Source: Chondrilla cf. caribensis (lineage: Eukaryota; Porifera; Demospongiae; Chondrillida; Chondrillidae). From it: a stretch of DNA of 64,000 nucleotides. The stretch spans positions 4,272,352-4,336,351 of the forward strand of contig OZ026550.1 of the NCBI GenBank assembly GCA_964020155.1. Direction: 5' to 3'. Below the pieces are notes generated by a model. The model did not search any database. It saw nothing but the letters and a program-made list of their open reading frames with translations, and had not been told where the DNA came from. Shown piece after piece: positions 45,285-59,173 of this stretch (its first letter is position 1; every line of letters starts with the position of its first letter). The position numbers and the translations under genes were made by a program.

Positions 45285-45288
45285 AGTG
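45285..45288. repeat. Target-site duplication AGTG, left
   Basis: CTTCAGTG precedes the element and AGTGTGTCCTC follows it. N1 and N3 carry the empty site CTTCAGTGTGTCCTCAG / CCTCAGTGTGTCCTCAG with AGTG once. Confidence 0.9.
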
Positions 45289-45321
45289 AACACGTTATTA
45301 TTTAAAACCTTGAATTCTTAT
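45289..45321 (+). repeat. Left terminal inverted repeat
   Basis: Begins AACACGTTATTATTTAAAAC. It pairs with the reverse complement of 59137-59169 with mismatches at positions 5, 9, 11, 13, 24 and 31 only. The similarity stops after position 33. Confidence 0.88.
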
Positions 45322-45552
45322 TTATGGTAGATCATGCACAATTTCGGCACTAAATGGGCTTAATTCTCATATGATAGATGCAGACTTTGAAATCAGTCCA
45401 TTATACAATATTTATGGTACAGCTGAATAAATATAAGGGTGTTTTTGTACAATTGCTATTACGTACAAAATGACGAGTATATCCTAATCTATTAAGTTCT
45501 TTTTTCTTGATATACATGATGAATACAATGGATAGCTGTGAATATACGTGTC

Positions 45553-45558
45553 TTTATT
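45553..45558 (-). promoter_or_regulatory. Polyadenylation signal overlapping the stop codon
   Basis: The - strand reads GAGAAATAAAGACAC: the TAA stop lies within AATAAA. This supports the distal exon as the true 3' end of the ParB/methyltransferase-like gene. Confidence 0.55.
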
Positions 45559-48500
45559 TCTCCGCAGAAGACATCAAACACTGAAAGTGCATATCACTGA
45601 AATCCTCCTGCGTGTTGCATACAGAGAGAGAGAAGCACTTCAGGTCCAGCGCAGCATCAGCAAAGGAACCTGTTTAAGACATGAATATATTATAATCCAT
45701 CAATGATATTAATATTTATATAATATATATATAAAAGAGTTTTGCTAAGTCATGTATTATGCATTCTATTCGGAAAGTCACCAAAATTGGATCCCCTAAC
45801 AATGTTAAATACGGTATGTATACATGTATATAAATTCAGAAGCAGTGTCAGTTGTGAAGGTACCAAAATTGGATCCCCTAGCCAATTTTCATACTTGCTA
45901 TATACAGTATGTATGTATTATGTATATAACATAATATATAATATAGGTATAATATTATATATAATATAATTATATTGATTCAGAAGGGTGATGCATGCAG
46001 GCTCGTTCAGAATTGTATTTTCAAGTTCCCCCAAAGAGTGGTGAATATAGCACCCCCTTTCCCCCAAAGAGCGGTGAATATAGCAATTAACCCCCCGAGC
46101 TTTGTCGGGATAGCAAAAATTTTAGCATATAGTACTTAAATACCCATCTCCGCTCTGATCATGAGATAAACATTTCAGCCTGGCAGTTGCGGCAAATCGA
46201 TGGCAAATCAATTGTTGATCAATGAAAGCATTTTACCACTATATAACCAATCTAAGAATTCCCACAAATTAGAGAAAAAGGAAAAGGATCCATAATGACC
46301 TGCTCAAAACTGAAGTGGAAAGCTAGGGGCAAAACAGAGTAAACTGCCATTTTTCATTACGTCATCAAACATTTCTAATGACATCACAAGTTGAAGTGTG
46401 CAGCAAACATCAAGACCAGGGAATTTCAAATTAGCCCATTTTTTGCTCTTCTATACTCAACTAAGGATACTAGGCTCTTTTGGCTGTAGGTGGAGCAGAT
46501 ATTGAGGCTGAAATAAGAGATTTAATCTGGTTTGTACCCCCCTTCTTTTTGTCTGGGGAAACACAGGATGACAATTGTATTAGTAATGTCATGACCCAAG
46601 ACTCACCAGTCTCTTTACAGTCCTGCAAGGATATCACTGTCTGTCCAGGGCAGGCGTAGTGAGTGATCAGAGCTGTGTAGAGCTCCTTTCGGCCATTGCA
46701 AACAAAACAGTTTGACCTTCTCACTTTTATTTCAATTGGTCTGCCCCTCACCAATGACCAGTGCCCCACAAGTACATACTTGACGACAGGATCCAGTGTG
46801 AGCCCTCTGGATTGGAGTTCTAAATAGGCATGTATGAAAATATTCTGTTCTGTTGTAATATGTATTAAATTAAATAAATAATTAATAAACAATTAAATAA
46901 TAATTTTTCAATCACTATATTGCAACAAAATTAATAGTGCGAGATGAATTCTTGCAAGTAATTTTGGCACCAAACAATGCTTATAAATGATTAATATAAG
47001 GATTTATGGCAACTCACCAGCAACTGTTTCCTTCCCCTCATCAGTTTTGTCGGCCACAACTGCTACCTCTGTACTGTCAAAGTGTGTGTCTAATGTAGCC
47101 TTAAATGATGCCAATTGTTCAAAACTGCATACGACAGCAAAGTGATACACTTCGAGTGAGGCTGAAACGGAGTTAAGCTGTCTGATGGTCAGGGCTATGA
47201 CTTTCAAATCATCGGCAGTAACATCCTAAATGATGGAATATCAATAACTAATGAACTTCAAGATGAATCGTAATAAATCTTAGACTATAGTTGTTGATAG
47301 ATGAAATTTTACTCTAAGTGAAGGTACAGTAGCTGTCTATGGCTTAAATCTTAGCCTAAAAGTAAAAAAAACGAACATTGTCAATAAATCCGACACACAA
47401 TCATGCTCAAATACAGTGGATCGTGCGGAGCTACAGCAGGAATTGATTGTTGCGGCGATCATGCATGATGTGCTTAGTAATAAATATCAATCACATGCTC
47501 AGTACATGATTTGTGGCCCGCTGAAAAGGCTCGATTGCAAGGAGGCGAATGGCCATCGCATACTTATCAAGACTTGACCATCAATTTCAACTGCGAGTTG
47601 GTCGGTCTTTGGCCTTGTGGAATTTGGTTATCAGGGGAAATGCAGTGTTCAGGTAAGCTACAAGGACTTTCAGAACAATTACCCTAAAGTCTATTCAGTA
47701 GGGAGGTAGGACGTACGTGGCTGTACGTCGGTCATTCCTAGGTGGGGGATTCCATTAGTGAAATAAAGTTTCCATAACATTGACCTACCAATATAACATT
47801 ACATAATTGTGTTCTGCGCAGCGTACATGGGTGACAGCTATGTTTACAATCATGAGTCAAAATTTACCCCTGTTGATTACACTAAGTTAAACATGTTCCA
47901 CAACTATCAAAACATTCAATAGCTCACTGGAAATGCATCCATCACTATTAGTGTGGCCCCACTAAAACTTGGAATTTGCTCCATTACTTTTCTGCTGTTC
48001 ACTTCTTTTAGCTCACTCTGCATAAAATATACCTTCGTACCATTTCTTTCAACACAGGTAACCAGCTGCTGAGATGTGGATGTCTCCCTGATACTGTCCA
48101 AGGCTGCCTGACAATATAGCCTGAAAGCCTGGGGAAGTCCTTCTTTGCCTTTCAAGTTGAGGTGGGAATACGGCTTTAACCCCTCCTCATTTGCAAAGTG
48201 GGGAAACTTTGCCACAGCATCCTCCCAAGAGCTTGTTCGCGTGCACCTTGTGGTGAGTGTAAGTGTTGAAATTGTAATCATGTTGTATTACAGTAACTGT
48301 AAATTAAATTATGACATTTTGTACCATTATGTCTGAATAGTCAGTATTACTCAGCTACAAGGAGATACTTATCTTCCTAAGTAAGTATATGGCTGCTTAC
48401 CTGACAAATATGGCCTTTGCCAGTTTCATGGCTCTGAACTCAGTTGCGGACAGCTTTAGCTCTGCCAGGGACATTTCTCTCTCCTTCACCTTCCTCAGGA

Positions 48501-57900: not shown

Positions 57901-58892
57901 GTGCCTCAATGAACGACCTATATGTTAGGTTCGACAAAGAAGAAGAGATCCCCAAGGTAAAACATAACCAATCAATCATAATATATATTGCCTTAGATAT
58001 ACCTGATAGGCAAGTTTATACCGTTCGACTATCTTCCCGTGTGTCCTTGCCGGTTTACAGCCACCATCAGCTGGCGGCCCGCCGCTGGCAATGGTCTTCT
58101 TGTACCAATTAGACGATCCGAGCGTTTAAGGAGAATTTAGTGGCCCTGGGCGTAGGAATCACCAGGGCCACAAAGCCCCGGGCCCCTCAAGTGACTCACT
58201 TGAAAGCTCCAAATTAAAGCCCTTACACAGCCTCAGAGGTTCCAATTCAGTTGTAGCCCTTACACAGCCTTGTTCCACATTTGAAACCCTTACACAGCCT
58301 TGCAGGTTCCAAATTTGTAGCCTTTAGCTACACAGCCTTGCAGGTTCCAAATTTGTAGCCTTCAGCTACATAGTCTTGGAGGTTCCAAATTTGTAATCTT
58401 ACATAGCCTGAGAGATTATGCACTTGAGACACTAACATCTATTATAAGACATTGAGGTTTACATTAGCATACTGGTAAGTCTGAACAATAATGTGAATAA
58501 ATTTCCTATTTCAAATCATGCAGGTGTACACTGGCTCATACAGAAGCAAGAAAAATGAAGTTGTGGGAACGAGTTCCACATCCATTAGAGAGGGACAACT
58601 AGTTGCTGTGTTCTGCGAAGATTCTAGCTCTGAACCATGGATTGGCACATGTTTGTCTGCAAACAAGGACACAATTCGGTTGTCCTGGCTGAAAGGAACT
58701 TACTCCTCTGCATGGAAGCCCTGGAAGAAGAGATCGGGGAGGCAAATGATCAGCTGGGAAGATGTCATACCTACATCATCAGTTATTTTATATGATTTTG
58801 ACTTAACTAAAACACAACATTTACAGAAAAGCACAGTAGCACATTTAAAACAAGCATACGATAGCTTACGTACATGTATTTCTGACGATTAG
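51942..58892 (+). CDS. DUF7869-type protein, candidate DDE transposase (799 aa)
   Basis: Thirteen exons: 51942-52071, 52352-52411, 52675-52734, 53097-53335, 54625-54834, 54917-55069, 55360-55484, 55764-55933, 56363-56598, 56698-56803, 57350-57573, 57639-57956 and 58524-58892; total exactly 2400 nt with consistent GT-AG phases. N-terminal Cys cluster CCTKRC, then GKVVCRDAYTHILSISKARL. A CDLC pair (about 291-294) with HLKH follows. The core has IIDGMDQSK (Asp352), LQLDNCFRENKN (Asp435) and VGHTHEDVDQLF (Glu474), a D-83-D-39-E spacing like RNase H-fold DDE enzymes. The C-terminus (about 700-765) reads GQLVAVFCEDSSSEPWIGTC and SWLKGTYSSAWKPWK, Tudor/Agenet-like. I recall this family as DUF7869, common in cnidarians and sponges. 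The transposase role is inferred from the acidic triad and its place inside the TIRs. A domesticated host gene is the alternative. Confidence 0.8.
52332..52970 (+). repeat. Tandem duplication of a 60-nt exon with its introns
   Basis: Two copies about 323 bp apart each contain an exon of exactly 60 nt, phase 1-1 (52352-52411 and 52675-52734). They encode (D/G)GLEDSMDTSCEINDIIPI. The flanking introns are also repeated (ACAGATCATG...CATACATACATGTACAAAC). Either one or both can be included without changing frame. Confidence 0.85.
52905..53012. repeat. (CA)n then (TA)n microsatellite
   Basis: Compound tract just before exon 4 of the DUF7869-type gene. Confidence 0.95.
53495..54233. mobile_element. 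739-bp MITE with about 75-80-bp terminal inverted repeats
   Basis: GCTGCTAGACCCAACTTAAT at the left is mirrored at the right end, and the match runs with small gaps through CAACTATTGTAA.TTTCACAC to about 53570 and 54155. TA flanks both ends, consistent with a TA target duplication. No transposase ORF. It sits in intron 4 of the DUF7869-type gene. Confidence 0.85.
58225..58415. repeat. Degenerate tandem repeat in last intron
   Basis: About five units of TTACACAGCCTTGCAGGTTCCAAATTTGTAG-type sequence, about 40 bp each, in the intron before the last exon. Confidence 0.8.
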
Positions 58893-59136
58893 GTGGTACT
58901 CTAGCTTGTAAAGCTTCAATATTTCAGTGTATCTGTAAATTCTGGTTGGATAATTTTGCTAAGTGCAACACCTTGCTATGATACATCATAAATATACATA
59001 AGCTCATAGCATTATATAATTTGCAATTACTTCAATTTAGGGTCTTGCATGATGTAATGTGCAAGGTAAGGCAGATTTTACAGTATCTTAACAACGATAT
59101 TGTCAAAAATGTCTTCAAAATAGCAGTTTATAGGAG

Positions 59137-59169
59137 ATCAGAATTTAAGGTTTTAATTCAGAACATGTT
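59137..59169 (-). repeat. Right terminal inverted repeat
   Basis: Its reverse complement begins AACATGTTCTGAATTAAAAC and matches the left end at 27 of 33 positions. Confidence 0.88.
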
Positions 59170-59173
59170 AGTG
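59170..59173. repeat. Target-site duplication AGTG, right
   Basis: Followed by TGTCCTCAGATACTTTGAAT, the continuation of the K/N-type 3' UTR. Confidence 0.9.

Follow-up and report, generated by a model that had tools for sequence, protein, structure and literature searches.

A 64,000-nucleotide stretch of contig OZ026550.1 from Chondrilla cf. caribensis (hereafter the window) carries, between positions 45285 and 59173, two head-to-head genes enclosed by short inverted repeats, which raises the question of whether this segment is a resident pair of host genes or a mobile element, and what its two proteins would do in the latter case. The first-pass annotation, made from the letters alone, had proposed a transposon that combines a DUF7869-type gene with a divergent gene for a ParB-methyltransferase-like protein (here called PAR). 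We found that positions 45289-59169 (13,881 bp) are a terminal inverted repeat (TIR) transposon belonging to a dispersed family, that the DUF7869 protein is its likely transposase, and that the C-terminal third of PAR resembles a DNA methyltransferase that lacks its catalytic motif.

Element ends and empty sites

The ends, the target-site duplication (TSD) and the uninterrupted sister sites are as follows (positions in the window).

45285..45288, unstranded: left TSD, AGTG, identical to 59170-59173 and present as a single copy at the empty site in two sister genes (5540 and 28218)
45289..45318, plus strand: left TIR, 5'-AACACGTTATT..., 25/30 against the right TIR
59140..59169, minus strand: right TIR, 5'-AACATGTTCTGAATTAAAACC... 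on the minus strand, 25/30 against the left TIR
59170..59173, unstranded: right TSD, AGTG, identical to 45285-45288
5158-5898, 16873-17516, 27837-28623 and 36577-37189: uninterrupted sister sites, aligned across the junction by the joined flanks

The TIRs pair at 25 of 30 positions, or at 27 of 33 over 33 bp, and are bordered by the 4-bp AGTG duplication, just as the first-pass annotation had claimed. Among 57 control pairs of stretches with the same spacing, the best inverted 30-bp match was 24, and none reached the 25 of the window ends. The binomial expectation for such a match was about 1e-4 without the TSD match and about 7e-7 with it. When the two flanks of the element (400 bp each) were joined, they gave single junction-spanning alignments with small gaps at four other places in the window (80 to 82% identity). 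The open reading frame (ORF) directly upstream of the element encodes an NHL-repeat protein (PF01436, E 6.5e-28); therefore, the four sites were taken as sister NHL genes, two more than those (N1 and N3) in whose 3' ends empty sites had been claimed. The exact sequence TGTCxTCAGTG was found at two of the four sites (5540 and 28218) and was not found at the other two. These data confirm that the segment is a TIR transposon.

As a side observation, at least five related NHL-type genes follow one another in the window (at the four sister sites and at 44417-45271), with 3' ends about 80% identical; the Pfam assignment covers the last of them.

The interior holds two complete, intron-rich genes in head-to-head orientation, as had been annotated. 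Both splice into stop-free frames of 13 and 12 exons and were also recovered by a spliced-alignment script. One PAR intron is of the GC-AG type.

51942..58892, plus strand: DUF7869 transposase gene (putative), 782 amino acids (aa), 13 exons, PF25273
Exons 1-7: 51942-52071, 52352-52411, 52675-52734, 53097-53335, 54676-54834, 54917-55069, 55360-55484
Exons 8-13: 55764-55933, 56363-56598, 56698-56803, 57350-57573, 57639-57956, 58524-58892
45554..51760, minus strand: PAR gene, ParB/methyltransferase-like protein, 760 aa, 12 exons
Exons 1-6: 51760-51581, 51007-50866, 50782-50543, 49730-49458, 49379-49252, 49185-49069
Exons 7-12: 48965-48839, 48590-48401, 48246-47928, 47225-47018, 46849-46607, 45669-45554
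51761..51941, unstranded: stretch between the two start codons from the gene coordinates, 181 bp, presumably a shared divergent promoter

Dispersed copies of the element family

The 137-Mb assembly, in which the window lies on contig C5, was searched for further copies. PAR matches were obtained at 15 or more other loci (named A to O; the window is W), which makes 16 with the window, on five contigs, and a divergent DUF7869 gene stood beside PAR at all 16. The transposon was thus not left without relatives in the genome, an outcome that the first-pass annotation had named as its refutation. Its layout reading, a transposase next to a partner derived from DNA binding or modification, was supported. 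Loci C and D constitute one 20-kb block that occurs twice, 80 kb apart, with 99.8% identity including the flanks (G000:C2:5474001-5494000 and 5554601-5574600); therefore, at most 15 loci are independent, and the block would be either a segmental duplication or an assembly duplicate with one transposon copy. Copies J (contig C2), K (C1) and L (C16) are 98.5 to 99.4% identical over long blocks, and their readable flanks differ. By this sequence comparison the family has evidently moved recently, because three near-identical copies lie on different contigs.

Both ends could be read at 5 of the 16 loci, where the duplications were AGTG (W), GAGT (H), AACA (J), AGTA (K) and the 5-bp TGAAT (G); the length was thus 4 bp in four of the five copies and 5 bp in one. 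For L and M one end was covered, the sequence read did not span both ends of A, B, C, D, E, I, N and O, and a TIR search in copy F returned no pair with a TSD. Other copies carrying the same TIRs had been anticipated, which held for the family but not for the window's own end sequences: a genome search with these (316 and 281 bp) returned the window itself only, while a 28-bp pattern of the J/K/H-type TIR gave 18 matches (at most 3 mismatches) compared to 0 in a reversed control. A pattern of the window end type matched four times, its own two ends included (control, 0); the others, at C2:6190695 and C4:2758051, had 3 mismatches each and were each read over about 1.8 kb only. Between subfamilies only the terminal 44 to 59 bp or so are alike; the terminus is therefore the conserved part.

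Beside these copies, five J/K/L-type TIR ends were observed within 121 kb in a single orientation (G000:C9:1781977-1902548). Ends at C9, C20, C24 and C1, read over about 0.6 to 0.7 kb only, showed no inverted partner and were not called miniature inverted-repeat elements.

PAR proteins of different subfamilies are only about 35% identical; nonetheless, intron positions are common to the subfamilies. Five positions were shared by all four DUF7869 models, whereas for PAR one was shared by five of five models and two by four of five. The window protein served as the guide for all copy models, and this can bias them toward shared positions. The spliced DUF7869 models of G, H and I were unreliable (scores 327 to 334), the outermost small exons of several others were spurious, and PAR model K entered the comparison with 6 stops and one small exon omitted. 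Old introns in common are what DNA-based transposition leads one to expect. Over eight exons each, the DUF7869 genes of J, K and L showed 18 synonymous against 4 nonsynonymous changes and their PAR genes 4 against 2, counts that are summed over three nonindependent pairs; PAR of G versus H showed 5 synonymous and 6 nonsynonymous changes (ratio of nonsynonymous to synonymous change, pN/pS, 0.32). Small as they are, the counts point to constraint on both genes, and the methylase-like region of PAR described below appears to be maintained by selection even though it has lost the catalytic motif.

These properties (intron-rich and intact genes, signs of purifying selection in relatives, and intron positions common to the copies) would also suit two fixed host genes held head-to-head by conserved synteny, with inverted repeats arising by chance. 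We give this explanation practically no weight. It is ruled out by the four uninterrupted sister sites and by dispersed copies with target duplications of their own; the TSD, the recurrence of the divergent gene pair at 16 loci spread over five contigs, and the copies that are about 99% identical in different flanks also speak against it. Both features by which a TIR cut-and-paste DNA transposon is recognized, TIRs with a TSD of fixed length and several dispersed copies, were found.

The DUF7869 protein as a likely transposase

The 782-aa protein matches PF25273 (DUF7869) with E=5.4e-71 at residues 352-543, in agreement with the family named in the first-pass annotation. Its predicted structure (predicted local distance difference test [pLDDT], 82.5) shows an RNase H core in which a D-D-D triad is conserved (VIA-align and residue conservation). 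The closest structures were Mos1-type transposases; plain Foldseek of the same model gave no match below E 0.001.

55764..57573, plus strand: catalytic RNase H-like core with the putative triad D335, D418 and D460

In the predicted model, the protein has the RNase H-like fold and the three acidic residues that define DDD/E transposases. A separate, intronless DUF7869 transposon of 2,685 bp was found at two further places in the genome.

L054 (G000:C3:3659000-3664000) 855-3539 and L055 (G000:C2:6207600-6212600) 872-3556: intronless DUF7869 transposon, TIR TGTGGGCTTCCACG..., TA duplication

Its sole ORF of more than 150 aa is the DUF7869 gene (730 to 732 aa). The DUF7869 protein is likely the transposase of the window element, because its modeled D-D-D RNase H core is close to those of Mos1-type enzymes and because an element with TIRs and TSDs carries DUF7869 only. 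If the element were instead mobilized in trans by another enzyme, with the DUF7869 gene as a passenger, the lack of a close second copy of the window's own ends would be accounted for; both the DUF7869-only element and the conserved acidic triad speak against this possibility, which we consider very improbable.

The top two protein matches of the DUF7869 protein were to sponge proteins, one of Amphimedon (42% over 65%) and one of Ephydatia (47% over 51%), in line with a probable sponge host. DUF7869 proteins are listed as uncharacterized in corals, echinoderms, molluscs, hemichordates, a lancelet, a liverwort and a dinoflagellate. In viral contigs, 42 pattern matches were obtained, of which none was confirmed, and a full-text literature search, outside the scope of which most subscription papers fall, returned no paper with DUF7869.

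Further observations concern these genes. DUF7869 exons 2 and 3 (52352-52411 and 52675-52734) are near-identical 60-bp copies in a duplicated stretch of about 320 bp, beside long CA and TA repeats. A DUF7869 intron (about 53490-54240) contains, by eye, an inverted repeat whose arms (TAGACCCAACTTAATT... / ...AAATTAGGTTGGGTCTA) are separated by about 700 bp, perhaps a nested miniature element. The ORF end of L054/L055 looks like a CCHC zinc knuckle by eye, with no Pfam match for one, and one DUF7869 match (G000:C1:7830713-7831168) lies in an open frame of 2,351 aa, a length well beyond that of the other intronless members.

PAR as a probable DNA methyltransferase derivative lacking the catalytic motif

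The label "ParB-methyltransferase-like" was supported for the methyltransferase part, by domain profiles and shuffle controls, and only weakly supported for the ParB part.

45554..48246, minus strand: PAR exons 9-12, degenerate N6/N4 DNA methyltransferase-like region, residues ~535-760 (hhalign and column shuffles)
49252..49730, minus strand: ParB-N-domain-like core, GGLHSV at residue 262 and RHNVN at 305 (profile alignment in the GERR/ENxxR register, weak significance)

Searches of the PAR protein against Pfam, NCBIfam and PHROGs gave no support for a ParB-methyltransferase, and there was no Pfam match. We compared the C-terminal third by profile with N6/N4 DNA methyltransferases (YhdJ and three PDB sequences; reference set YhdJ, 8urk, MboIIA and RsrI). 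The alignment was near end-to-end, covered 218 columns with motif IV and motif I in register, and reached an hhalign score of 25.0 (E about 0.01), which none of the column shuffles equaled (0 of 100 and 0 of 120). For the middle part, the alignment to ParB N domains followed the canonical register, GGLHSVxA and RHNxN standing in the places of GERRxRA and ENxxR; the arginines of GERR are absent. Its score of 17.66 was borderline, just below the 95% point of the shuffles (17.84), and a second shuffle set reached the observed score 4 times in 120. The cross controls of these domain-level comparisons scored 14.7 and 8.8. Whole-length hhalign was significant neither against ParB (E 0.17) nor against the methyltransferase (E 0.2), and the PAR profile found just two matches in PDB (E 0.43 and 2.1). 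Methyltransferase ancestry of the C-terminal third is thus the favored reading of these alignments, whereas ParB ancestry of the middle part is likely but unproven.

The DPPY signature of motif IV, which is present in the reference methyltransferases, was found in none of the eight PAR relatives; the window PAR reads DAFP there and so falls outside the active N6/N4 DNA methyltransferases as defined by this motif. FxGxG of the S-adenosylmethionine (SAM) motif is absent in all three relatives that fully span motif I (W, H and P0001). Methylation by PAR is therefore unlikely, DPPY being kept in no relative, and we infer from these sequences a loss of the activity. PAR might still methylate DNA by means of a rearranged active site, as the near end-to-end alignment including the SAM-motif region could suggest; with both motifs gone, we regard this as highly doubtful.

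Protein searches with PAR recovered P0001 in one case and P0001 and P0112 in the other, and since scoring was limited to about 8,000 candidates, those with the most words in common, relatives may be missed. None of 21 pattern matches in prokaryote genome contigs and none of 32 in viral contigs was confirmed as a PAR relative, and tblastn with P0112 against phages found none. The structure model of P0112, a PAR relative, was unusable (pLDDT 46.7).

Comparison with known transposons

The first-pass annotation had known of no eukaryotic transposon with this pair of proteins. One has in fact been described. According to the passages of Dinatale et al. (2025) that deal with it, Sola1-1_Ec32 of Ectocarpus (Sola-1 superfamily) is a giant 21.5-kb DNA transposon with a transposase gene and, on the opposite strand, a gene for a 1104-aa protein that combines ParB-like with N4C/N6A DNA methyltransferase domains; these passages also cite green and red algal cases of the pairing and propose that the proteins of the algae attach to the transposon encoding them and modify it epigenetically (PMC12477816). 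In our literature search, only this paper joined ParB to a eukaryotic transposon; the lack of animal cases is weak evidence given the scope of that search. Like Sola1-1_Ec32 as described there, the window element has a putative transposase gene and an opposite-strand gene (opposite in 16 of 16 loci) for a candidate ParB/methyltransferase-like protein, but it is shorter (13.9 kb), has a smaller partner (760 aa) and has a probable animal host. It also differs in the missing DPPY motif (8 of 8 relatives) and the weak ParB match, and the comparison is with the description of the Ectocarpus proteins, not with their sequences. Likened in this way, the giant Sola1 transposon of Ectocarpus is the closest described kind, and the window element appears to be an animal version of it whose methylase is dead.

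For the Sola superfamily, the relevant passages report that the transposase is of the DDD type, that TSDs are 4 bp long, that TIRs vary from 11 to 1124 bp, that some elements exceed 15 kb, and that members occur in metazoans and a moss (PMC3627910, PMC10741241). The window element fits these traits by description, not by transposase sequence; the TSDs of W, H, J and K have the 4 bp, whereas the duplication of copy G has 5 bp. Compared to the mariner transposases Mos1 and Metnase (3k9k, 5hoo), the DUF7869 protein has 782 aa, extra N- and C-terminal regions and about 8% identity. Tc1/mariner membership was rejected, the TSDs of W, H, J and K being 4 bp and not TA (TA does flank the separate L054/L055 element). 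Kolobok elements with KolX and other accessory proteins also pair a transposase with an accessory protein in one eukaryotic DNA transposon; unlike the window element, they duplicate TTAA, as the pertinent passages state (PMC9587614). ParB does not occur in that paper. Since AGTG, GAGT, AACA, AGTA and TGAAT are not TTAA, the element was not assigned to Kolobok/piggyBac.

A proposed role for the two proteins

We consider it probable that the element, which looks autonomous, belongs to a multicopy family of cut-and-paste DNA transposons and has a D-D-D DUF7869 transposase and a methylation-dead PAR as DNA-binding partner. The transposase would recognize the terminal 44 bp or so, excise the element and insert it at cuts staggered by 4 bp. 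PAR, expressed from the presumed common promoter, would be a sequence-specific DNA-binding partner that binds the ends or the 181-bp intergenic stretch and would either mark or pair the ends for assembly or regulate the promoter; it may keep the methylase fold, probably not the enzyme activity.

Several observations weigh against this reading. The hhalign probability for the match of PAR to methyltransferases was about 4%, and therefore the shuffle controls carry that claim. Four intron-type DUF7869 places (C7:527058, C5:3354932-3358157, C19:2153417-2154488 and C7:2160752-2163999) have no nearby PAR match. The same is true of intronless DUF7869 loci, so that PAR pairing is not universal for DUF7869. 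PAR could also be a self-regulator or anti-silencing factor that acts on chromatin or transcription by binding the element it comes from and has no part in transposition, which we hold to be possible but unlikely; the missing DPPY makes modification itself improbable under that explanation.

With the preferred reading of a transposase and a DNA-binding partner, we tentatively suggest, somewhat short of an even chance, a giant animal transposon lineage in which a ParB-DNA-methyltransferase fusion was kept as a catalytically dead, sequence-specific DNA-binding subunit beside a DUF7869 transposase, the fusion perhaps being of common origin with the partners of algal Sola1 elements. The pairing of a ParB-methylase with a transposase is known from algae; new here are the probable animal host and a methylase-like partner without the catalytic motif. 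The role of PAR-type partners becomes testable as binding rather than modification. A function is also offered for DUF7869: its uncharacterized proteins would be transposases or derived from them, and the gene lists of DUF7869-bearing organisms may hold hidden transposons. If this is true, DUF7869 would be a large unrecognized reservoir of transposases and derived genes.

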